This document shows, in pieces, positions 1,328-12,505 of a stretch of 64,000 nucleotides of DNA. Position numbers and translations under genes: made by a program. Source of the DNA: Actinomycetes bacterium (GTDB taxonomy: Bacteria > Actinomycetota > Acidimicrobiia > Acidimicrobiales > RAAP-2); assembly GCA_021793515.1 (NCBI GenBank), contig JAJYSP010000013.1, positions 1 to 64,000 of the forward strand. Direction: 5' to 3'. The number at the start of each line of letters is the position of its first letter. Position 1 is the stretch's first letter. Below the pieces are notes generated by a model, which saw only the letters and a list, made by a program, of their open reading frames with translations, did no database searches and was not told the DNA's origin.

Positions 1328-1357
1328 CTTTCGTGTGATAGCGCTTGGAATAACAGA
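1328..1357 (+). repeat. Left terminal inverted repeat of the IS
   Basis: Starts CTTTCGTGTGATAGCGCTTG and continues through GAATAACAGA. Its reverse complement with one mismatch is found at 3411-3440. Confidence 0.85.
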
Positions 1358-1489
1358 TGTGTAGTTTGGCATCTTCTGCCCGCGGGGCGGAAGATGCCAC
1401 ATCGACAGGGCGAGTTCGAATGCCATTTGGTGGCCAAGCCTGTAAGGCTGGGGACGGTTGGGACAGTGACTCTACGGAGGTGGTTCTTG

Positions 1490-2047
1490 ATGAGAAGGCT
1501 CATAGCGGCGGCGATGATGTTCGGAGCTGTGGTCGTGCCACTGGCGTCCCCCGAGGTCACAGCGGGCGCGACAAGCGTGCCGCTCTGCTCCACGTCCCAG
1601 ATCTCGGTCTCTCTGGGCGCAACCCAGCGATGGACGATTGACAAGCCGATGCGCGGAGACCTGGTCTCGGTCACCGCCATCGACTTCACAAACCACGGCT
1701 CGACCTGCCAACTGGCGAGGTCAGGTCCGTCGGTCAGGTTCCTGTGGATGCCCAACACAACCATCAACACCGCGCCCCAGCTCACGGTGGCGGTCTCGGC
1801 GCGAGCCCCCCAGGGTCTCTTGCCCCTGAAGAAGGGAAAGACTGCCGCCCTGAACCTGTTCGTTCGAGGCACCCCTTCGACCAAAAAGGCGTGCCACCCG
1901 GTCACCGCCGCGGCCATCGAGGTCTCGGGTGTGGACGGGGCTGGCGGATGGGCCCACTTCAGTCGGACCATCGCGCACGTGTGCGCGAACCCGGCACTCC
2001 AGAGCGCCAGCTACGGCGTGGGGTGGCAGCAGTACTGGATCGTCTAA
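1490..2047 (+). CDS. Secreted DUF4232-like protein carried inside the IS
   Basis: The start is ATG 1490, with GGAGG at 1476-1480. The 185-aa product opens MRRLIAAAMMFGAVVVPLAS, a Sec signal peptide with likely cleavage after the VTAGA region. The mature part is a small beta-rich domain with four cysteines (PLCSTS, STCQLA, KACHPV, HVCANP). The pattern of an early Cys, an FTNHGSTC segment and PSVRFL resembles DUF4232 exported proteins of actinobacteria, whose function is unknown to me. The gene lies between the inverted repeats, convergent with the transposase, with 42 bases between the stops. It therefore moves as cargo. In-frame codons upstream of 1490 lie in the IS terminus and are unlikely to be translated. 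Confidence 0.7.
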   Translation: MRRLIAAAMMFGAVVVPLASPEVTAGATSVPLCSTSQISVSLGATQRWTIDKPMRGDLVSVTAIDFTNHGSTCQLARSGPSVRFLWMPNTTINTAPQLTVAVSARAPQGLLPLKKGKTAALNLFVRGTPSTKKACHPVTAAAIEVSGVDGAGGWAHFSRTIAHVCANPALQSASYGVGWQQYWIV

Positions 2048-2089
2048 GCGGCCTCGACCAGCCTGAACCACCTGCACCGGATTGAGCAG

Positions 2090-3394
2090 TTATTGATGTA
2101 GCGAGGCCTTCAGAGGTCGCTGCCCCGCCTTGCGTTGAGCCTTGGTGACGCGGGTGCCCTTGTCCCGGCACTGGAGCTGGTGTCCGGGGAGTTGACCGGT
2201 CTCGAGCGCGGCTCGAAGGGTGCGCGCGAAGACCAACTCGTCGGCGCGGTGATTGAGGCGAAGGCGCACGAGCTCGAGCATCCGGTTCGTGCGGACCTTG
2301 TTGCGGAAGGAGAACTCCCGGCCCTCGATGATGGCCTTGACGTCGTCGAGGAGGTTCTCCGCTGCGGCGTTGGAATGGTGGGCCGGCAGCCGGCTGCGCC
2401 ACGAAGTCTGGGCACGGACCTGGGCGTCCACCTGGTCACACCAGGCGTTCAGGGTGATGTAGCCGTCCGGGTCGATCTGGCGGCGAAAGGCCGCCCAGCC
2501 CTGGGGACTGTGGAAGGCTGAGCGCAGGTGCTCAACGACCGTGCCTCCCTCCTGGTCGAGGCCGTAAGGGCGGAGTTGCGCGAGTGCGTTCTCACGAAGG
2601 TGATACTCACAGCGCAGCCAGAACGGCTCGGCCTCCACCGTCGACCAGTTGCGCATCGGCGTGACCTGAGGCCACTTCAGCTTCACCGCCGAGGTGATGG
2701 CCGGGTCCTTGTCCGAGACCACGAGTGTGGGTGTCCCCGGAAGTCGGTCGAAGACCTCGAGCCAGCCCTGTGCGTTGGCGCGGTGGGTCGCGTGCAGGGC
2801 CCAAAGCCGACCGCGCTTGGCGCCCGCCTCGTATCCATAGACCACAAGGACGTTGAACATCATCCGCTGCCTCTTGGTCTTCGGGTCGGTCGACCAGAAG
2901 TCCGTTGAGTCACACACGATGGTCTCGGGCCAGGCTGTCTCGGCCCAGGGCGCGGTCACGATTGGCGACAGGGTCTCGACCCAGTTGCCTACGAGCTGGG
3001 CACCGTAGGACACACTGAGTTCTTCGCGTCCGGCCTGAAGACGCGCAGTGACGGCGGCTCTCGTGTAGGTCTCGCCATTGGCCACGGACATCAGGGCCGC
3101 CGCTACCTCGCGCACGCTGAAGGTGTAGCGACGAGGGGCCTGAGGACCCTGATGAGGTTCGAGATGGACCTCGCAGGTGTCGCACTCCTGGGCCGCGACC
3201 AGCATCCGGCGCGGCAGAACGCCTGCGAAGGTGTGCGACGCACCGCTCACGTAGCAGCGGTAGAGCTGACGACGCGCCAGACCGGTCCCGTAGTGACCGC
3301 AACGCACGACGCGACTACCAGAGTGACGTGGACAGTCGGGTAGCCCCACACGAAGTCCCGAGCCCACTGGGCGGCCACCAGCCACCCGATCCAT
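2090..3394 (-). CDS. DDE transposase, IS256/Mutator-like
   Basis: The 434-aa product has an N-terminal zinc-ribbon-like part (cysteines at 21, 32 and 47, ending in SHTF, then a CDTC pair near 71-74). A helical DNA-binding region follows, then an RNase-H-like catalytic core. Candidate catalytic acids are D162 (in VCDSTDFW), D228 (in VVSDKD) and E346 (in AAAENLL). A CxxHxxRxN segment at 262-269 matches the conserved CxxH of Mutator/IS256 transposases. The start is ATG 3394, preceded by GGTAGG, 16 bases inside the right inverted repeat. The frame is intact, so the element may be active. The exact IS family should be treated as provisional. Confidence 0.8.
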   Translation of the reverse strand: MDRVAGGRPVGSGLRVGLPDCPRHSGSRVVRCGHYGTGLARRQLYRCYVSGASHTFAGVLPRRMLVAAQECDTCEVHLEPHQGPQAPRRYTFSVREVAAALMSVANGETYTRAAVTARLQAGREELSVSYGAQLVGNWVETLSPIVTAPWAETAWPETIVCDSTDFWSTDPKTKRQRMMFNVLVVYGYEAGAKRGRLWALHATHRANAQGWLEVFDRLPGTPTLVVSDKDPAITSAVKLKWPQVTPMRNWSTVEAEPFWLRCEYHLRENALAQLRPYGLDQEGGTVVEHLRSAFHSPQGWAAFRRQIDPDGYITLNAWCDQVDAQVRAQTSWRSRLPAHHSNAAAENLLDDVKAIIEGREFSFRNKVRTNRMLELVRLRLNHRADELVFARTLRAALETGQLPGHQLQCRDKGTRVTKAQRKAGQRPLKASLHQ

Positions 3395-3410
3395 CCTACC
3401 TAACTACATC

Positions 3411-3440
3411 TCTGTTATTCCAAGCACTATCACACGAAAG
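3411..3440 (-). repeat. Right terminal inverted repeat of the IS
   Basis: Reverse complement of 1328-1357 with a single mismatch; ends in CACACGAAAG at 3440. Confidence 0.85.
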
Positions 3441-3498: not shown

Positions 3499-6132
3499 TC
3501 ACTCTGCCGACACTGGGTCACTTGCAACTCTCACCGACGAAGGCGGGAGGAGGTAGGCGTCGTATGGATCAGCAGGCCAGAGGTGGCCGCCTTCATCACG
3601 TCGACAGTCCTGACAGATGAGACCATCGGGATCGGGTATGGTCGCTGGTCGCCGCCTTGGCGAACTGCAGTGCGGACAGGGCGGTAGGTTCCACGTTCTC
3701 TCCGACCCTCCTTTGTAGGTCCAGTGATCCTTGAACTGGTGCATCTGAATTCTCTGGTGCAATCGATCGAAGGCGTCCGCCTCAATCTTGTCGATGTCTT
3801 CCTCTCGAACTGGCTTCCCCGTCGCAACGATGTCGTACATCGCCGCGACGAGGTTCGACGTATACGGCCGGCACCACTTGGCAGTGGCCGACGTCGTATG
3901 GACCAGGTGTAACCGCCTTAGGAGCTCCACCGGCTCGCCGATCTCGACCGCGAGTGCGTCAAGGTCTGACGAGTCGAGCACGAGCGACACGAGCCGTGAT
4001 AACCGCGGGTCAGCCACTCGATGGAGCATGAACCGCCTCTTGTCCATGCCCAGACGAAGCGCAAGTTCCGTCCCGGCTGCTCGAAATGCACCGGCGTCCG
4101 GGACAAGTGATCGCAAGGTCGCGGGCCCCGACCTCATTTGCTCGAGCAGCGCGTCCGCCGCGGCCGTGTCCGCGAAAAAGGGGCTGTCGATGTGTTCCAC
4201 GCTGACCGGCACGACGAACTCGTTATCGCCATCGTTAATCACAAACTCGAAGTCGATGGTGAGCACCAGGTTGGTGACCCCGTCAACTTCGCGAGAATTC
4301 GACGTGAGAGTGCACTTGCGAAGGGCCGTCGTAAGAAGGTCCCGGTAGCGCGAGTCGAAGGGATCACGAAGGCTCGCAACGAGATGAAGCAGGGATCCCA
4401 GCGCGGCGCTTTGCTGCGTGGACGCCGCAGCGGCGACAGCGTCTTTCACCGTCCTCTCTCGATCGAGAACGAGTTGCTCAGCGGCTGGAATATCGTTATC
4501 GGCCAGGCGGTTGAATCGGTCATTGAGCTCTCTGAGTAGCGCACCGCGAATCATCGGTAGTCCATCCTCGCCCCGTTCAACCAACTGGCATCGAAGAACG
4601 TCATTCTCGTCTTGCAGACCACGGAGTGACGTACGGGCCAGTGCGAGGTCGAGTTCGAAGGACTCGTCTATCGCCTCTATGGGAATATCTCGGACTAGCG
4701 CGTAGGCGGACTCGCCCGCCCCGATGATGGCCTCGGCGAGCGCTCGATTGAGAATGCCGGCCGGCAAGTGCACCTTCAATTTGGGCTTGATCATCTTGAA
4801 GGCACGGTCGTACGGTTCGGCCAGACAGACGCCCAGCGTATAGCGAAGCGATCCGTTGGGACGGCGGAAGGACTTTGTTACGAAGTAGCAGTCCACCCCG
4901 TCAACGCACACTGGTACCTGAGCGAACGCGAGCCCTCTGCTTGGAGCGTGTTTCACCGATGCGCGATATTCCCGGATTCTTACGAAGTCCTCAGGAGTTG
5001 CCCAACCCTCACCATCGGGAGGAAAGCAGTTTGAGACCTGAAGATCGTCGACCCCCTCCACGCCAAACTGAACCAGCAGCACACCCGTTTCGTAGAACGT
5101 CAGATGGTCGAAGATCGGGTCGACGTAGGCCTTGGGGACCGTGATGGCCTTCTTCGGATCTCCCACGGCGTCGGGGCCGAACAACCGTCTCACACCATCG
5201 GTCGAGAACCGCCGTGCGGCGAGACCGGCGGCAACCTCCGCGTGGCCCCAGCCCGGTCGACCAAGCATCGACAGCGCCCATCGCACATTTGCCACCTGAT
5301 CGACGAGGTTCCCGTCATCGTCCCGCACATCGGGCAGACCGGCCGCCACGCTCCGTTCCGGTGGGAAGTACGAAGGCGTATCGAACGTGCCAATCCTGGT
5401 GCCAATCGCGCCGCCGCGTAGTGAGCGATACGAGAACATCCCCGGCGGCAGTGGGTGGCAAAATCCAATGCGGAACTGACCGTCGGCAACTTCCTCCTCC
5501 GTGCCGCTGCGCATGCCCCTACGAGTTTGCTTCGGAATCTTGGCCGCGTCATCCTCGGCGGCACGGACCTCAAAAAACGTGAGGATCGACTCGGGTCCAT
5601 TGACCTTGCTGAAACCCCGACGCGTGTCCGCGAGGTAGCCATTCACTCCTTCCAGTACAAGCATCACCGGTCCAAATGCCCACGAGACTCGGGTCAGTCG
5701 GTCAATCCTCGTCGCGAAAAGACCAGCCACGCCGTACTCGTCGAGAATCTCGGCCAGGCGGTCCACGAAGGGCTGGCGCCTGTTCTTATCCAGCTGATGC
5801 CCCGACCCGCACGAGAGAACACAGACCACGCCGTGCGTGGCAGTGAAGTCCAAAGTGACGTACGAGTTCTTGAAACTCCCACCGTCGCGCTTCGTTGATT
5901 CGACGGGCTTGCTCGCCTTGAGCATGGCGACGAGCTTCATCTTGTCTGGAAGGGAGTCGCGAATGTCCACACCGCAGCTGACGAGGAAATCGACGGCCGA
6001 GAGGAAGTCGTTCACGGCCTGCAACCAGCCAGCTGGGTCGCTGAATCTCCCAACGACACAGATGACCTTCCCGGAGTCGTGCATTCCGATGAGATCCGCC
6101 GGCACTCGTCCCTTAGTTAGATGAGGTCTCAC
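3499..6132 (-). CDS. Divergent large serine recombinase (877 aa)
   Basis: Large serine recombinases cut and rejoin DNA through a serine intermediate. Here the resolvase-type core shows VDRLAEIL at 123-130 and then RIDRLTR at 142-148, the conserved D-R-L-x-R motif. A GRFS at 28-31 is the best candidate for the catalytic Arg and Ser, but it lies about 113 residues before the DRLTR Asp, about twice the usual distance, implying an insertion or a changed active site. After a PPGMFSY segment comes a recombinase-domain-like region with WALSMLGRPGWGHAEVAAGL near residue 300, a probable coiled coil around 500-600, and a C-terminal zinc ribbon (CPHC and CQDC). ATG 6132 overlaps the upstream small gene by four bases. 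It could be an integrase, a transposon resolvase-like enzyme or an inactive relative. Confidence 0.65.
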   Translation of the reverse strand: MRPHLTKGRVPADLIGMHDSGKVICVVGRFSDPAGWLQAVNDFLSAVDFLVSCGVDIRDSLPDKMKLVAMLKASKPVESTKRDGGSFKNSYVTLDFTATHGVVCVLSCGSGHQLDKNRRQPFVDRLAEILDEYGVAGLFATRIDRLTRVSWAFGPVMLVLEGVNGYLADTRRGFSKVNGPESILTFFEVRAAEDDAAKIPKQTRRGMRSGTEEEVADGQFRIGFCHPLPPGMFSYRSLRGGAIGTRIGTFDTPSYFPPERSVAAGLPDVRDDDGNLVDQVANVRWALSMLGRPGWGHAEVAAGLAARRFSTDGVRRLFGPDAVGDPKKAITVPKAYVDPIFDHLTFYETGVLLVQFGVEGVDDLQVSNCFPPDGEGWATPEDFVRIREYRASVKHAPSRGLAFAQVPVCVDGVDCYFVTKSFRRPNGSLRYTLGVCLAEPYDRAFKMIKPKLKVHLPAGILNRALAEAIIGAGESAYALVRDIPIEAIDESFELDLALARTSLRGLQDENDVLRCQLVERGEDGLPMIRGALLRELNDRFNRLADNDIPAAEQLVLDRERTVKDAVAAAASTQQSAALGSLLHLVASLRDPFDSRYRDLLTTALRKCTLTSNSREVDGVTNLVLTIDFEFVINDGDNEFVVPVSVEHIDSPFFADTAAADALLEQMRSGPATLRSLVPDAGAFRAAGTELALRLGMDKRRFMLHRVADPRLSRLVSLVLDSSDLDALAVEIGEPVELLRRLHLVHTTSATAKWCRPYTSNLVAAMYDIVATGKPVREEDIDKIEADAFDRLHQRIQMHQFKDHWTYKGGSERTWNLPPCPHCSSPRRRPATIPDPDGLICQDCRRDEGGHLWPADPYDAYLLPPSSVRVASDPVSAE

Positions 6133-6398: not shown

Positions 6399-6666
6399 CT
6401 CTTTGAATCAACTCAAGTGGCTCGGATGCCACACTCGCTGTGTGATCGTCATCCAGTCGCCGGTGCGCCGTATCAAACGATCTGCGTTCCAGACCAACTC
6501 TCCTGGCCGGCGCCGCCCGCATGGGCGGGGTCGGCGCGCATCACGACGTCAGTGCCCAGGCCGATCGGGACCCGAACGCTAAATGCGAGCAGGTACGGCC
6601 TCGCCGCGGCACCGCACCATCAGGTTGCGAAAGGAGCGGCGAAACCCAGTAGCCGACGATAAGAAC

Positions 6667-7097
6667 ATGACACTCAGCAGCATCCCAGCGCCACCAAAGG
6701 ACCGCAATCCACTACCCATACCGGGCGAGACGCTGAGCGGCGACGTTCAACGCATCCTGTACCGAATCGAAGCTGAGTACGAGCCCGAGAGCTATCAGAA
6801 CAGATTCGCCTCCGCCAAGAACAAAGTGACGCGGAGTCCAAACTCGGTAGGGCGATCGATGGCATCCTCGGCGGAACGGACAGCGCCGAACTCGGCACCC
6901 TGCTTCAAGCGGAACGCCACGCCGCCAAGCAACGACGCGACGAGGCGTGGCGAACGCTCGAGAAGGTGGAGTTGGCCCAGGAGATACTCGGACTGAGGTT
7001 CAGCCACGCCTACTTCAGCCCCATCGCAGCCCTGCGGCCGCTGCTCGAACTGGTCGAGCGATACGACTATCCCCCGTACGGCCAACTCGAAAGTTGA
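6667..7097 (+). pseudogene. Frameshifted coiled-coil protein gene
   Basis: From ATG 6667 the frame reads as a plausible protein (MTLSSIPAPPKDRNPLPIPG, then GDVQRILYRIEAE) up to about 6775. Past that point this frame becomes serine/arginine-rich nonsense to 6996. The next frame takes over sensibly: RARELSEQIRLRQEQ, AIDGILGG, LLQAERHAAKQRRDEAW, then AALRPLLELVERYDYPPYG, stopping at 7097. That second frame has no start codon of its own after the stop at 6774-6776. A single-base loss near 6775 explains both halves. The joined product would be about 142 residues, mostly helical and charged. Function is unknown. No slippery heptamer is obvious, so I favour a mutation or sequence error over programmed frameshifting. 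Confidence 0.6.
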
Positions 7098-7239: not shown

Positions 7240-7617
7240 TCATCCATCCTTGAGCGTCATCGCACCGTGCTCGCCGCCCAGGCGTGCGAGAGCATCAACG
7301 TGCCTCTGGAACGCTTGTCTGGTCTCGTCGATCCATATCATCGAGTACGCATCGAGCTCGTCGAGCGACTGGAGTTCCACGGCACAGCTCAAGGCGTCAA
7401 TGACGCTCCGTTGGCACCGAATGACTGCATCGTGGATCTCCGCGTTGGTCCACTCGTCGATGGTCGTTCGAGTGGGCAGAAGCGCCACTTCGCAATTGGC
7501 TTCACCGATTAGCCGATTGAGCGTGGTCGAGAGATCATGCTCGCGAGACGGTAGCCGAATAGTGGTCTCTGATCTCGGCGCGTTCGACCCGAAAGCTCTG
7601 CGCGGCTCTCCCCTCAT
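7240..7617 (-). CDS. Tandem paralogue A, unknown helical family (125 aa)
   Basis: The start is ATG 7617, overlapping the stop of paralogue B in ATGA (7614-7617). The product carries LP at 47-48, IDEWT at 53-57 and C68-Q69, with the same spacing as its two neighbours (L to I 6 residues, W to C 12 residues). A second helical half ends with FQRHVDAL. There is no signal peptide or membrane segment. It has about 16 extra N-terminal residues compared with B and C. No known function is recognised; the trio reads as one operon C-B-A within the integrated region. Confidence 0.65.
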   Translation of the reverse strand: MRGEPRRAFGSNAPRSETTIRLPSREHDLSTTLNRLIGEANCEVALLPTRTTIDEWTNAEIHDAVIRCQRSVIDALSCAVELQSLDELDAYSMIWIDETRQAFQRHVDALARLGGEHGAMTLKDG

Positions 7618-7961
7618 AGCTCGTCCCACGATCTCGGGAACGCGACCCGAGTGAGTGGTAGAAGGTCCGAATAGACGCTGTCGATGTGAAGATGGACTTG
7701 AATACACATGGCGAGGGCCGCATCGGCGTCGGTCTGCAGTGCGCGAGGGGGGTTGCCGCTCTCGTAGATCTCGATGACGCTTCGCAGAACTCGACTCAGC
7801 ACGTGATGGCACTGCGTCATGGCCTGAAGGACCTCATCACGTGTCCACACATCAATGTCGCGCTCGGAGGGCAGCTTCGCCGCAGTGTCCATCAGCTCGT
7901 CGACGACATCTCGCAGCGAGTGGTACCAATCGGCGTCGTAGACAGGTTCGTACTCGTTCAT
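7614..7961 (-). CDS. Tandem paralogue B, unknown helical family (115 aa)
   Basis: The start is ATG 7961 with GGAG a few bases upstream; longer frames upstream read through paralogue C and are noncoding. The product has LP at 30-31, IDVWT at 36-40, C51-H52, and a C-terminal block I93-D94-x-V96 followed by LLP at 100-102. These positions match paralogue C without a gap. It is predicted all-helical and soluble. It is translationally coupled to paralogue A. No database family comes to mind. Confidence 0.65.
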   Translation of the reverse strand: MNEYEPVYDADWYHSLRDVVDELMDTAAKLPSERDIDVWTRDEVLQAMTQCHHVLSRVLRSVIEIYESGNPPRALQTDADAALAMCIQVHLHIDSVYSDLLPLTRVAFPRSWDEL

Positions 7962-7998
7962 CGTGCTCCAATCACTCTGAGTAGGGGACGTCGTCGCT

Positions 7999-8316
7999 TC
8001 AGTTGGCGATGGGGAGAAGTTCGTACCGGACGACGTCAATGTCGCGCTGACAGTCCCGGCACACGGCCTCGGCGAAGAGAATCGTCGCTCGCGTGGATTC
8101 ATCGAGATCCTCCGGTACGCCAAAGCCCGAAACCGTATCCTCGACGAAGCGCACGAGGCGCTGGCACCGTTCGAGTGCGGCGGTGGCGGCCTCGCGGCTC
8201 CACTGATCGATGCACCACCAGGTCGGTAGTTCGAATGCGGCGTCCAAGAGAAGCGTGGTTAGGCGGTACACCTTGATGCGTTGATCGGTCATTCGATTGT
8301 CGGCTACTTGGGTCAT
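7999..8316 (-). CDS. Tandem paralogue C, unknown helical family (105 aa)
   Basis: The start is ATG 8316, preceded by a good GGAAGGGA site. The 105-aa product shows LP at 30-31, IDQWS at 36-40, C51-Q52, a CRDC pair at 86-89 and I93-D94-V-V96 followed by LLP at 100-102. It lines up with paralogue B over its whole length without gaps although most residues differ. It is the first gene of the C-B-A unit, 37 bases before B. The role is unknown. Confidence 0.65.
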   Translation of the reverse strand: MTQVADNRMTDQRIKVYRLTTLLLDAAFELPTWWCIDQWSREAATAALERCQRLVRFVEDTVSGFGVPEDLDESTRATILFAEAVCRDCQRDIDVVRYELLPIAN

Positions 8317-8616
8317 GGGTTCCCTTCCGGGTCAGTAACTCGTCAGCACTTCGTAGACATCGATGCGGTGTTTGGTCTCCTGGCGCCGACGGACCGGCCG
8401 ACACCACCTCCTCTCTGGTTCCCTGACTGGCTTCGCCGCCGAGCCCGTTCTCTGGGCGGTCCTGACTCGTTCCGCGGGTTAACCAGCATCACCATGCCGC
8501 GAGGCGGTGTTTCGCGCACTCGCCCCTTACGGCCCGGTCGCCCCGGTATCGACCGTCATGTGACCGGACGACCCGTCCAGCGGGCCGTTCATGGCTTCAC
8601 CTCTCGGTGGTGACCC
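8317..8616. other. Gap between paralogue operon and integrase
   Basis: No long protein is supported. It should contain the promoter of the C-B-A operon and the end of the integrase unit. A 21-codon minus-strand frame (ATG 8592, stop 8527-8529) has a good AGAGGTGA site before it and could be a tiny peptide, but nothing else supports it. Confidence 0.4.
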
Positions 8617-9948
8617 TTAACGAAACTCCCCGGTCCCCGTCAACCACTGGTGAGCCGTGGCCACCTCGTCCTCGCCCGCCACGGTGTAACCGTCGGTCAC
8701 GTCGTTCTGGGCGTGGCGCAGGAAGGCCCGGGCCGTCGCGTGGCCGTAGGAGCGCTCGATCAAGGTACCGACGGTCTTTCGCAAGTCGTGGGGCCGACCG
8801 TGCAGGGCGTCGAGCCACGGGAGCTCACGCTTCAGGCGGGACCACAGCGAGTCGAACCGGCGCCGGGTGAGCGGGTGGGGACGTAAGACTTTCGTCCCGT
8901 CGGGCTCGGTGAAGTGCCGGGAATGACGGTAGTAGAAGACGGGTGCGTCGGGACGCAACACGATCTGGCCCGACTTGACGTCATCGAGCGTCAACGATTC
9001 GGGGTCGAAGTCCTCGGGTGCGCGCAGCACCACCTCGCCGCGCGCGACGGCGTGTCGTAGAAGTGCGAGCATCAGTGCCTCGCTGATCGGCTGCTCGTCG
9101 ATCTTGTCGGCCTTTTCTCCCAGCCGAACCTTCATCTCGTTCACCAGCAGGTCTCCGATGCGCACCTTCACGGGCGCGCTGCGCCGTCCCCCGGTCTCAA
9201 GAAAGAAGCCGACCGAGAGCGCGTCAAGCTCGACGTCGTCGCTGCCCGACGTGAACAGAGCCCGCCACAGTTCTTCCAACCGCTCGGCGCTGTAGCTGCG
9301 CTTCTGCACGTCCGGGCGGGGGAAGCGGCTCATCTTGATGGCAATGTTCTCGGAAACGCCCGTCGTGCGGTCGCCGCTCGCGATCTTGTAGGCGAAACTG
9401 AGGAAGCCCCGCAGGTGCTCGACGGCCGAGTGACCCTGGTAGGCGAATTGGGGGCGACCTTCGTCGGCCCGAATGAGGTTGCGCACCCGGGTGCGCTTTC
9501 GCGCGCGCAGCTGCGCCCAGTGGCTGAGTTGCTCAAGCTGGCTCAGCGTAATCGCGGCGAACTCGACTTTGGCGAGTACCGGGCAGTGCTCGAGGCAGCT
9601 TTTCGCTTGTACCGGACCCTCGCCGAGGTTCGCGCGGCGACAGTCACACGAACCTCTGGCGACGCACGCGCACGGCGTCCACTGCGAGTCGGCGCGAAAG
9701 GCGCCCAGACACGTCGGACAGAAGCAGGCGCAGAGGGCCGGCAACCCCTCGCACGCGGTGGTGATGTAGGTCTGCCACGCGATGGCCTGGCCCTTGGAGA
9801 GCGCCGGCACGACGTCTGTCGCGACGAACGTTCCGAAGCGCACGACGTTCTCGTTGGGCTCACCGAGGAGGTCCTGCGCCGTCAGTCCCAGGGCGGCGAG
9901 CGTGGTGCGCGCGGTCGCGAAGGCCGTCGCGCGGTCGATGCTCGCCAT
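8617..9948 (-). CDS. Tyrosine-family site-specific integrase with Cys-rich N-terminus
   Basis: The 443-aa product shows the tyrosine recombinase signature: TGGRR at 252-256, K282 near the beta-hairpin, HDLR at 387-390, H412 in LRHAQND and the nucleophile Y421 in DGYT. The core-binding region lies around 130-220. Between residues 66 and 122 there are eleven cysteines (ALCACFCPTC, then CACV, CDC, CLEHC), an unusual probable zinc-binding insertion. ATG 9948 is one base after the stop of the AbrB-like gene, so the two are coupled. It is the first complete enzyme next to tRNA-Leu(GAG), the usual position for an island integrase, and presumably drives integration of this island. Confidence 0.85.
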   Translation of the reverse strand: MASIDRATAFATARTTLAALGLTAQDLLGEPNENVVRFGTFVATDVVPALSKGQAIAWQTYITTACEGLPALCACFCPTCLGAFRADSQWTPCACVARGSCDCRRANLGEGPVQAKSCLEHCPVLAKVEFAAITLSQLEQLSHWAQLRARKRTRVRNLIRADEGRPQFAYQGHSAVEHLRGFLSFAYKIASGDRTTGVSENIAIKMSRFPRPDVQKRSYSAERLEELWRALFTSGSDDVELDALSVGFFLETGGRRSAPVKVRIGDLLVNEMKVRLGEKADKIDEQPISEALMLALLRHAVARGEVVLRAPEDFDPESLTLDDVKSGQIVLRPDAPVFYYRHSRHFTEPDGTKVLRPHPLTRRRFDSLWSRLKRELPWLDALHGRPHDLRKTVGTLIERSYGHATARAFLRHAQNDVTDGYTVAGEDEVATAHQWLTGTGEFR

Positions 9949-10719: not shown

Positions 10720-10745
10720 TGGTGTCGGAGGCGGGACTTGAACCC
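10720..10745. other. Candidate island attachment site at tRNA 3' end
   Basis: The 3' acceptor and T-arm end of tRNA-Leu(GAG) faces the integrase unit 110 bases away, the usual attB arrangement for tyrosine integrases. I did not find a second copy of this sequence inside the window, so the far end would be to the left. Confidence 0.35.
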
Positions 10746-10806
10746 GCACGCCCCTAAGGGCACCAGCCCCTCAAGCTGGCGCGTCTGCCTATTCCGCCAC
10801 TCCGAC
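10723..10806 (-). tRNA. tRNA-Leu (anticodon GAG)
   Basis: On the minus strand the acceptor stem GTCGGAG (10806-10800) pairs with CTCCGAC near 10724-10730. The anticodon stem CCAGC/GCTGG encloses loop TTGAGGG, giving anticodon GAG. A long variable arm (TGCCCTTAGGGGCGT area) and the T-arm GGTTCAAGTCC are present; CCA follows in the genome (10722-10720). It decodes CUC/CUU. It lies 34 bases beyond the solute-binding protein gene on the same strand and may be part of that transcript. Confidence 0.93.
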
Positions 10807-10840: not shown

Positions 10841-12505
10841 TCATGACGACGCGTTGACCGGCACGATTGTGTTCCACGACGGCACCTCATCGACGAATCC
10901 GGGCACTGATGCGGCACCCAGGACGCCCTGTAATTGCGGCGACCATTCCACGAGCGATGGTGGTGTGAAGAGCGGGCGAACCCAGAATGCGTCAAGCAGC
11001 GTCTGGTCATACGTCGACCACGTTGCGCGTGCGGTCACAGGATTGAACGTGTTCATAGCGGTGGAATAGAGCTGGTTCAATACTTTCAAGCGAAGCCCCG
11101 ACGGAAACGAGTCCGCGTAGAGGGGTCCCGACCACGAACTGGCGCTGAACGAGGGCGCTGAATTGGTCGGACGGTCGAAGAGCGCGACGTCAGCGTCATT
11201 GAATGCGAGGGTCATGGCAGCCGACGCTTCACTTGGTGCCGTGACAACGTAGGTGGCGATGCCCAATCTCGCCCACGAACGCACGATGGACGTCGCAGTC
11301 GCAGCATCAAGCGCCGATGGACCCCGCACCAAACGGATCGACAAGGGGCGACCCTGGGGGGAGATCCAACCTAGGGGGCCACGCACGAAGCCGGCGTTAC
11401 GCAACGCCCGAACAGCACACGGCGCACAGTCGGCCAGGTTTACCGGTGATGATGGTGCCGCGGGAACCGTGGTGGGGGTGGTCGACGACTCGCTTGGCGC
11501 CTGGCCGGGTGAACCTGGGTAGAACGGCGAACCTTGTGAGAACAGGACCGACGCGCCAGGCGACGGTGAGAACGTCACCTGACCCCAGAGCCCGCTGATC
11601 ATCGCGAGACGGTTGAGTGACCAGCTGAGGCCCTCTCGAACAGCGAGTTCACTCGTCAAGGGGCGATGGGCGTTAAAGAAGAGTTCTTCAATCGAACTCG
11701 ACGATCCGATATGACTGAGTACTGATGGGTGAGCGCTCAACGCGTCTACCTGGGACCGGTTGACCGTCAGGGTGTAGCGCGCGAACGGCTCGTTCACGTT
11801 GGGCGGTATCGGTGCGTTTGCGCGGATGACGATCCGTCCGAAGCGACTGGTCGAGGATGGCCACGCTCGATTCATTACCATGACCATCGACGACGCGTTC
11901 GCCGACACGAGCCGATACGGGCCGAGCGACGGCCGACTCAGCAGGTCGCTGAAGGAACAGCCCCCGTGCGTCGAACGACTCTCCACGTCGCGAAATAGCA
12001 GGTTCCAGTCCGAGTAGGGCTGCGAGAACGTGGCGGTCACCGTCAGTGCCCTATTGGTGAGTTTCATCGACTTGATCGCGCGATACCCGTCGCTGAGTAC
12101 GCTCGGAATCGACCGCGCACGGCGCCACCAAGCGACGAGGTCTCGTCCGTCAAAGGGCTGGTGGTCACTCCAACGCAGCCTCGGGGCGATCGTGTAGACG
12201 ACGGTCTCGGGGCTGAGCGACGTGAGTTCGGCTGATGCGATCGCGCCCTGGGAGCCGACCAGCGTGCCGCTCACGCTGCTCTGGAAGGCCGACGGTCTAA
12301 CGAGGTCAAGGACCGCGTCACTCGTGGGGTTCGCGTTCGGTCCGAGGAAGGTGCACCCGTTGAAGGGTCCCGGCAGTGAGAGCAGCAATGTGCGTGCGTT
12401 GTCGCCGACCGGCGTCGATGCACCGGTCAGGCTGCTCGAACCCGCCACCAGCAGTGCCGCGACGATGACACCGACGGCGCGCCATCGCGAACCGCGCCAG
12501 GACAT
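10841..12505 (-). CDS. Extracellular solute-binding protein, family 5 (peptide) type
   Basis: The 554-aa product begins with a basic stretch and hydrophobic segment (VGVIVAALLVAGSSSLTGAS), a signal peptide without a lipobox cysteine. The body follows family 5 substrate-binding proteins of ABC importers: an N-terminal ETVVYTIAPRLRWSDHQPFD block (the usual x-LR-x-x-x-WSDGxPF region), a helix-rich middle and a segment with LAVREGLSWSLNRLAMI (usual VR-AL-x-x-AID-R). It likely captures oligopeptides or similar ligands. It follows secG after 5 bases, an odd place, while a dppBCDF set without its own binding protein starts at 24.8 kb. Partnership is possible but unproven. Confidence 0.75.
   Translation of the reverse strand: MSWRGSRWRAVGVIVAALLVAGSSSLTGASTPVGDNARTLLLSLPGPFNGCTFLGPNANPTSDAVLDLVRPSAFQSSVSGTLVGSQGAIASAELTSLSPETVVYTIAPRLRWSDHQPFDGRDLVAWWRRARSIPSVLSDGYRAIKSMKLTNRALTVTATFSQPYSDWNLLFRDVESRSTHGGCSFSDLLSRPSLGPYRLVSANASSMVMVMNRAWPSSTSRFGRIVIRANAPIPPNVNEPFARYTLTVNRSQVDALSAHPSVLSHIGSSSSIEELFFNAHRPLTSELAVREGLSWSLNRLAMISGLWGQVTFSPSPGASVLFSQGSPFYPGSPGQAPSESSTTPTTVPAAPSSPVNLADCAPCAVRALRNAGFVRGPLGWISPQGRPLSIRLVRGPSALDAATATSIVRSWARLGIATYVVTAPSEASAAMTLAFNDADVALFDRPTNSAPSFSASSWSGPLYADSFPSGLRLKVLNQLYSTAMNTFNPVTARATWSTYDQTLLDAFWVRPLFTPPSLVEWSPQLQGVLGAASVPGFVDEVPSWNTIVPVNASS

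Follow-up and report, generated by a model that had tools for sequence, protein, structure and literature searches.

Three tandem paralogues

What are the three small genes that stand in a row downstream of a recombinase gene in the window, by which we mean the whole stretch of 64,000 nucleotides analysed here, and what could they do there? A sequence-only reading had described them as tandem, divergent paralogues, and they are located where it placed them, at 7240-8316, all on the minus strand and in the order A, B, C:

7999-8316, minus: A, 105 aa, first gene of the trio, modelled as a three-helix bundle
7614-7961, minus: B, 115 aa, paralogue of A and C
7240-7617, minus: C, 125 aa, paralogue; its ATG overlaps the stop codon of B (ATGA)

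The motif that the three proteins share is exact (LPTWWCIDQWS in A, LPSERDIDVWT in B and LPTRTTIDEWT in C), with a spacing of 6 from L to I and of 12 from W to Cys. A further proposed correspondence, IDxV followed by LLP at residues 93-102, does exist in the 105-aa A and the 115-aa B, but not under the names that it was given; these two are presumably the C and B of that reading, which would have numbered the trio along the plus strand. Coupled translation, which had also been proposed, holds for B and C, whose ATGA overlap recurs in the relative L031, but not for A and B, which are separated by a gap of 37 nt.

Pairwise Smith-Waterman alignment gave z values of 11.3 for A-B, 8.2 for A-C and 7.8 for B-C, the score being reached by 0 of 3000 shuffles for each pair, and profile-profile comparison gave E values of 4.7e-9 for A-C, 4e-9 for B-C and 1.6e-4 for A-B. 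Judged by these alignments, A, B and C are genuine paralogues from an ancient duplication. The suggested age of the tandem duplication is borne out by a tree of 19 proteins, in which A (97/98) and B (90/94) each form a single, separate line across loci, whereas a single C line is not resolved; the tree took 19 of the 40 members known, and the program warned of long branches. Each of the three genes represents a subfamily of its own.

A family without recognised relatives

The family was said to be unrecognised, and as far as it was tested this is so: searches of Pfam, PHROGs, NCBIfam and PADLOC with the window proteins A, B and C gave no convincing match, the best E value over the four libraries being 0.012. 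The PADLOC defence models gave nothing significant (best E 0.012, a partial match), nine members searched against Pfam hit seven families with one member apiece (best E 0.006), and a PDB sequence search with the A and C profiles returned nothing below E 0.2. We thus rule out identity with a known family on the strength of the four libraries for the window proteins, Pfam for nine members and the PDB profiles for A and C. The weak matches to Nudix_N, phrog_858, HEC-01B, UDPG_MGDP_dh_N and similar models were rejected, being partial and varying between members. Rfam gave 0 matches in eight loci. In the titles and abstract openings consulted, mostly from non-subscription literature, we found no description of such a trio.

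AlphaFold models of A (pLDDT 90.3, pTM 0.79; helices 2-28, 41-63 and 73-103) and of the 107-aa core of C (pLDDT 85.0; helices 5-27, 40-65 and 72-106) are three-helix bundles in which the LP...W stretch lies in the loop joining helices 1 and 2. The overall fold is like that of generic three-helix bundles such as the GAT, BAG, Habc and MIT domains and PTS IIA chitobiose, with VIA Z scores up to 11.6 for the A and C models; these scores lie below the level of 13 that the tool states for helical bundles, the best Foldseek E values are 0.2 for C (PDB) and 0.48 (PDB) and 0.21 (BFVD) for A, and no shared function is implied. Naming the proteins by fold was therefore given up, as the searches with A and C returned generic bundles only and no known effector fold. 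The HEPN ribonuclease motif is R-x4-6-H. A HEPN domain was rejected as well, since this motif occurs in 4 of 19 members and at non-equivalent positions.

All 19 proteins examined are acidic, with a net charge of -2 to -12, and this raises the possibility that they are anti-restriction DNA mimics carried on mobile islands, the more so as restriction genes, recognised by eye, lie nearby at three loci (L028, L063 and L110). Ocr and ArdA are strongly acidic DNA mimics. The charge of the present proteins is modest, however, with Asp and Glu making up 10-19% of residues, well short of the acidity of Ocr and ArdA, and their LP...W loop is conserved and hydrophobic; we regard mimicry as very improbable.

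Distribution

Members were found in 13 of the 99 genomes of the window's genus, its own included (12 when the C profile is used by itself), with a total of 40 members at 18 loci in these 13 genomes. Wider draws, in which the best ~10 candidates per genome were considered, gave 1 of 395 genomes for the class and 1 of 396 for the phylum, in both cases the window's own genome only, and 3 of 397 for the order, namely its own and two marginal matches inside long frames; a number of genomes in these three draws belong to the window's genus, and weak relatives may escape detection in them. Among 100 genomes of the family, seven had matches at E <= 0.1, two of them strong (its own and G098) and five weak (E 0.05-0.1). 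A profile search of genome contigs returned eight loci from Acidimicrobiaceae/Actinomycetes MAGs, all eight already in the genus set (G856, G864, G098, G865, G887 and G880). We judge the few and weak matches outside the genus to be due to chance. Left out of the counts were the five weak family-level matches, an own-genome match at E 0.24, a match on G880:C35 (E 9e-4) that was absent from the later genus search, and the order-level matches in G372 (E 5.7e-4) and G1081 (E 7.4e-4), which lie within frames of 425 and 1200 aa.

A phage or plasmid origin was considered and rejected, as two C profiles and a B profile found no relative in IMG/VR and a tblastn search with one C protein (P0006) drew a blank in INPHARED. 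In PLSDB the same protein had four matches at E 0.6-0.7, of which three carry the annotation uvrA and the fourth lies in a record without annotation.

Locus layouts and selection

The member census draws on the window and on 18 fetched loci; these 19 sequences amount to 18 genomic loci, as G865 is split across two contigs with A and C at contig ends and was counted as one locus. There are 14 A, 8 B and 18 C members, the C count including a weak C-like member at L110 (18.8 bits), and a separate genus search also totals 40 matches. The layouts are:

A-B-C, 5 loci: the window, L019, L031, L064, L068
B-C, 2 loci: L026, L063
A-C, 8 loci: L021, L027, L030, L033, L065, L066, L067 (where a second C is present), G865
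C alone, 1 locus: L028
A-B, 1 locus: L069
Distant single gene, 1 locus: L110

Wherever at least two members share a contig, they lie on one strand in the order A-(B)-C. At L064 the start of A lies beyond the contig, and a stop interrupts the A frame close to the end of the contig. At L069 (3329-5035), where C is absent, B runs in frame into a protein that looks by eye like an amino-acid permease, an apparent deletion junction.

The motif spacing of the window proteins, LP-x7-W-x11-C, is kept in 14 of the 18 C members, but most A and B members no longer have it (it is present in 6 of 14 and 3 of 8, respectively). Its conservation among homologues, which the sequence-only reading had set as a test, is only partial. 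By a Nei-Gojobori count, dN/dS was below 1 in all pairs and lowest in the C line (0.08-0.39 in six pairs, as compared to 0.23-0.56 in four pairs of A and 0.31-0.58 in three of B); the values for two comparison neighbours were 0.11 (helicase) and 0.14 (DpdE-like). Between the window and L031, dS is high for C (1.24) and low for A (0.33) and B (0.26), which suggests that C was swapped by recombination near the B-C border.

One explanation that fits part of this pattern is that the two or three genes make up a small module that is complete in itself, serves defence or is toxin-antitoxin-like, and has been collected into islands. C is found at 17 of the 18 loci (or at 16, without the weak member of L110), apart from A, B and C no gene was seen common to all loci, dN/dS is below 1 in every pair, the B-containing type has its own leader element, and defence genes lie nearby. 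On the other hand, members drop out freely, leaving A-C at 8 of the 18 loci and B-C at 2, and the proteins have neither a HEPN motif nor a known effector fold. We consider such a stand-alone module improbable.

The recombinase side of the trio

Two features of the window lie upstream of A:

8617-9948, minus: tyrosine recombinase, 443 aa, the trio's nearest long upstream gene, on the same strand
10720-10806, minus: tRNA-Leu(GAG), found by ARAGORN, the chromosomal edge of the island

The recombinase adjoins the tRNA gene and matches the phrog_1 integrase at E 2.6e-10 and Pfam Phage_integrase at 26.5 bits, just below the cut-off of 27.1. The matches of relatives that run across the tRNA gene mostly start at window positions 10720-10722 and in a few cases up to 17 bp further left, and the trio therefore most likely lies on an island with one end at this tRNA gene. 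A 33-bp, 94% copy of the 3' part of tRNA-Leu at G000:C5:31792-31824 (L091) was considered as the attachment site and rejected; it could be an old site. As it borders nothing that has homology with the window's island or with the chromosomal DNA fetched from relatives, the far end of the island was not located.

An upstream gene is visible at 13 loci (not at L021, L027, L033, L064 and L067), with long open frames taken as genes and unassigned frames of up to ~160 aa ignored. The proximity to mobile genes for which the sequence-only reading had proposed to look recurs in other genomes: a recombination-type gene is nearest upstream at 10 of these 13 loci, a descriptive count without a base-rate control. 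At six of them (the window, L031, L030, L065, L068 and L110) it is a tyrosine recombinase, profile-supported or homologous, of which the L031 contig holds the last 33 residues only. At two it is a protein of 1114-1139 aa with excisionase-family HTH domains (L066 and L111; TIGR01764 above cut-off), and at two it is a weakly IS1182-like transposase with an unassigned partner of 593/649 aa (L028 and L063). The latter two transposases match the IS1182 model at E 1.8e-5 (L063) and 0.0094 (L028) and are 27% identical; at L063 the partner gene is the nearest and the transposase pair is divergent from B-C. The remaining three loci (L019, L026 and L069) have neither a recombinase nor another recombination-type gene nearest upstream. 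The gap to the recombination protein is ~300-1370 bp, except at L110, where the C-like gene and an integrase frame overlap by 4 nt. On the other side of the trio, different cargo follows immediately after C, as is seen in L029 and L030, which share 94.7% identity up to a point 19 bp beyond the C stop codon and then do not match.

In L026 an integrase-like scrap is fused in frame before B. It resembles the 649-aa L028 protein (p 0.0005, 2000 shuffles) and not the L063 relative of that protein (p 0.33); the resemblance is suggestive only. Large recombination-type proteins with a C-terminal MerR/excisionase-type HTH were seen at L068 (5877-7847), L110 (3930-6536), L066 (3956-7375) and L111 (1575-4919). 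In L068 and L110 the HTH part is fused to a tyrosine recombinase, and integrase and excisionase-like parts may thus be combined in one chain.

A 42-bp upstream element

The leader of the window's trio contains a conserved element:

8487-8528, minus: conserved 42-bp element, supported by position weight matrix, starting 212 bp before A

On the coding strand its sequence is about AAGNGGCGWGTGCACGARAYCGANNNNCGCGTCACCGTGGCG. It is present at all seven B-containing loci with visible upstream DNA (the window, L031, L019, L026, L063, L068 and L069; that of L064 is not visible), where it begins 147-503 bp ahead of the first gene. A matrix built from L019, L026, L063 and L068 scored the window at 23.9, L031 at 23.4 and L069 at 9.9, with a background maximum of 6.8 over 126,940 positions, and the reverse matrix from the window, L031 and L068 scored L019 at 28.8, L026 at 24.3, L063 at 27.8 and L069 at 19.0, with a background maximum of 5.8 over 102,918 positions; L068 contributed to both matrices, the window is closely related to L031, and BLAST had preceded the choice of sites. 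None of seven A-C loci scanned scored above background (L021 was left out, and some upstream stretches are short), and L028 has a gapped form with a low matrix score.

Scans of whole loci gave one strong copy per locus, which makes terminal repeats unlikely, and weaker matches elsewhere, the highest of which (15.3) lies within an L064 gene; a BLAST search with the C14 leader gave no other good copy in its own genome. A promoter, an operator, a recombinase arm site and the end of a short frame are candidates for what the element is.

Defence genes beside the trio

That such genes could also lie near defence genes in other genomes, as had been anticipated, agrees with what we see: clear defence-type neighbours are present at 8 of the 18 loci (L019, L021, L028, L030, L033, L063, L065 and L066) and more generic ones at three, the rest being only partly scanned, and these counts are descriptive and without a base-rate control. 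The neighbours are:

L019: HmaA helicase, CBASS cyclase and patatin effector on one side, Wadjet JetD/JetC on the other
L030, L033, L021, L065, L066: DruE-like helicase, with an MZB domain in L030; the L021 contig ends within the helicase
L066: a cyclase is also present
L028: DUF4238 and GmrSD_N; type I restriction by eye
L063: Fic; restriction genes by eye
L064, 1310-5133: SbcD-like metallophosphoesterase and SbcC/SMC-type ATPase directly behind the trio; generic
L067: PD-T4-6-like kinase and NYN; generic
L068: AAA_21 ATPase; generic
L026: AlbA_2 and NERD
G865: SIR2_2
L110: restriction genes by eye
L027: ars-type operon by eye

A DpdE/DrmD-like helicase and a DrmMI-like methyltransferase were found by scan in L030 and by sequence likeness in L033, L065 and L066. 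In L030 (10483-20293), and also in L033, L065 and L066, the MZB DruE-like, DpdE/DrmD-like and DrmMI-like genes stand in a row and make up a mixed helicase-methyltransferase defence set.

These neighbourhoods could mean that the three proteins belong to the adjacent defence systems as subunits with an accessory or regulatory task, such as that of an adaptor or sensor gating a downstream helicase or nuclease machine. The DruE-like helicase has seven matches in the genus, and the five that are 80-100% identical all have A-C directly upstream on the same strand. In standing first, before the DruE-like helicase, A-C are comparable to accessory genes of defence operons (Druantia, DISARM and Dpd, by their PADLOC names), and in L030 the DpdE- and DrmMI-like genes follow behind; co-directional neighbours also include the SbcCD-like pair of L064, DUF4238 in L028 and Fic in L063. 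In contrast to those accessory genes, the A, B and C of the window have no meaningful PADLOC match, and members of the family also stand beside unrelated systems, among which we saw no common component. Furthermore, neighbours are convergent or divergent at L019, L026 and L027, A-C are found without the helicase at L029/G865, and the two helicases of 51% identity (G096 and G878), one of which is preceded by a frame that looks SIR2-like by eye, come from genomes without a family match. We consider a role as defence accessory somewhat unlikely.

A possible role in island movement

We tentatively favor another reading, namely that A, B and C are an ordered paralogous module of acidic three-helix bundles at the recombinase-proximal end of islands, a position seen at most but not all visible loci, and that they act as an accessory or regulatory factor for island movement. 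We give this reading a probability of about 0.35, and rank it slightly before the defence accessory and the stand-alone module. The sequence-only reading had suggested a multi-subunit complex or recognition set; members can be missing from it, as the eight A-C and two B-C loci among the 18 show. In the present reading the three proteins would bind one another, with C as the core and A and B as subunits that may be gained or lost, and the complex would assist or regulate island movement as TnpC, GinD and Srap do; the trio would be expressed from its leader, with the 42-bp element as part of that leader where B is present. The position on the recombinase side, the change of cargo behind C, the element and the fixed order A-(B)-C argue for such a role. 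Against it count the unrelated types of the recombination proteins, the three loci without an adjacent recombinase (L019, L026 and L069), the acidity of all 19 proteins examined, which is unlike a typical DNA binder, and the absence of the element from the seven A-C loci scanned. In G886 the same block of A-C and helicase stands behind two different recombination-type genes (L065 and L066), an arrangement that links A-C with the cargo more than with the recombinase. It is because the recombination proteins are unrelated, the proteins acidic and A-C linked to one defence set that we hold the mobility reading no higher.

Two reports describe TnpC (Tn554), GinD (GInts) and Srap (SEs) as small recombination helpers encoded right after tyrosine recombinases (PMC5385486, PMC10214605). 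There, the cargo of GInts starts at the ginD stop codon (PMC5385486), attL x attR recombination of SEs requires srap (PMC10214605), and Srap and GinD are reported to have coiled-coil C-termini (PMC5385486, PMC10214605). Compared with these descriptions, the trio proteins are likewise small and without a recognised enzymatic domain, and at 6 of the 13 visible loci they too are encoded beside a tyrosine recombinase, toward an end of a mobile island; as in GInts, variable cargo begins just behind the small gene, and as with Srap the host range is narrow. Unlike these helpers, which are described as single per locus, the trio loci have up to three paralogues, and these stand beside several unrelated recombination proteins, usually at least 300 bp away. 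No sequence link to these helpers emerged from Pfam, PHROGs and NCBIfam, which may lack models of the three and in which A, B and C had no meaningful match. The parallel that we draw is positional, and we do not claim membership in those families.

Combining mobility and defence, the trio could be an undescribed, genus-specific module, a hetero-oligomer of the three anciently duplicated bundle proteins with its own 42-bp control element, which serves islands with unrelated recombinases and couples their movement or expression to defence cargo. We think this doubtful. If the role in island movement is right, C and the 42-bp element would mark where the control end of such defence islands lies in this actinobacterial lineage, represented here mainly by MAGs, one small-protein module serving several recombinase types would be a testable case, and it would show how mobility and defence can share a module.

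Other features of the window

Downstream of the trio the window encodes a large protein:

3499-6132, minus: 877-aa protein, serine-recombinase-like by eye, with no meaningful library match

A 99%-identical piece of 312 aa of this protein is found at L026 (11264-12199), beside the other trio type in G856. Between it and the trio, plus-strand frames at 6583-7097 are convergent with the trio and look by eye like one gene split over two frames. At 1328-3440 the window holds an insertion sequence with imperfect terminal inverted repeats of ~47 nt and an 8-bp direct repeat, AACCGATA; it contains a transposase-like frame at 2090-3394 (weak IS1249/MULE match) and a plus-strand passenger frame at 1394-2047, and L026 has the unoccupied site of this insertion sequence near 11212.
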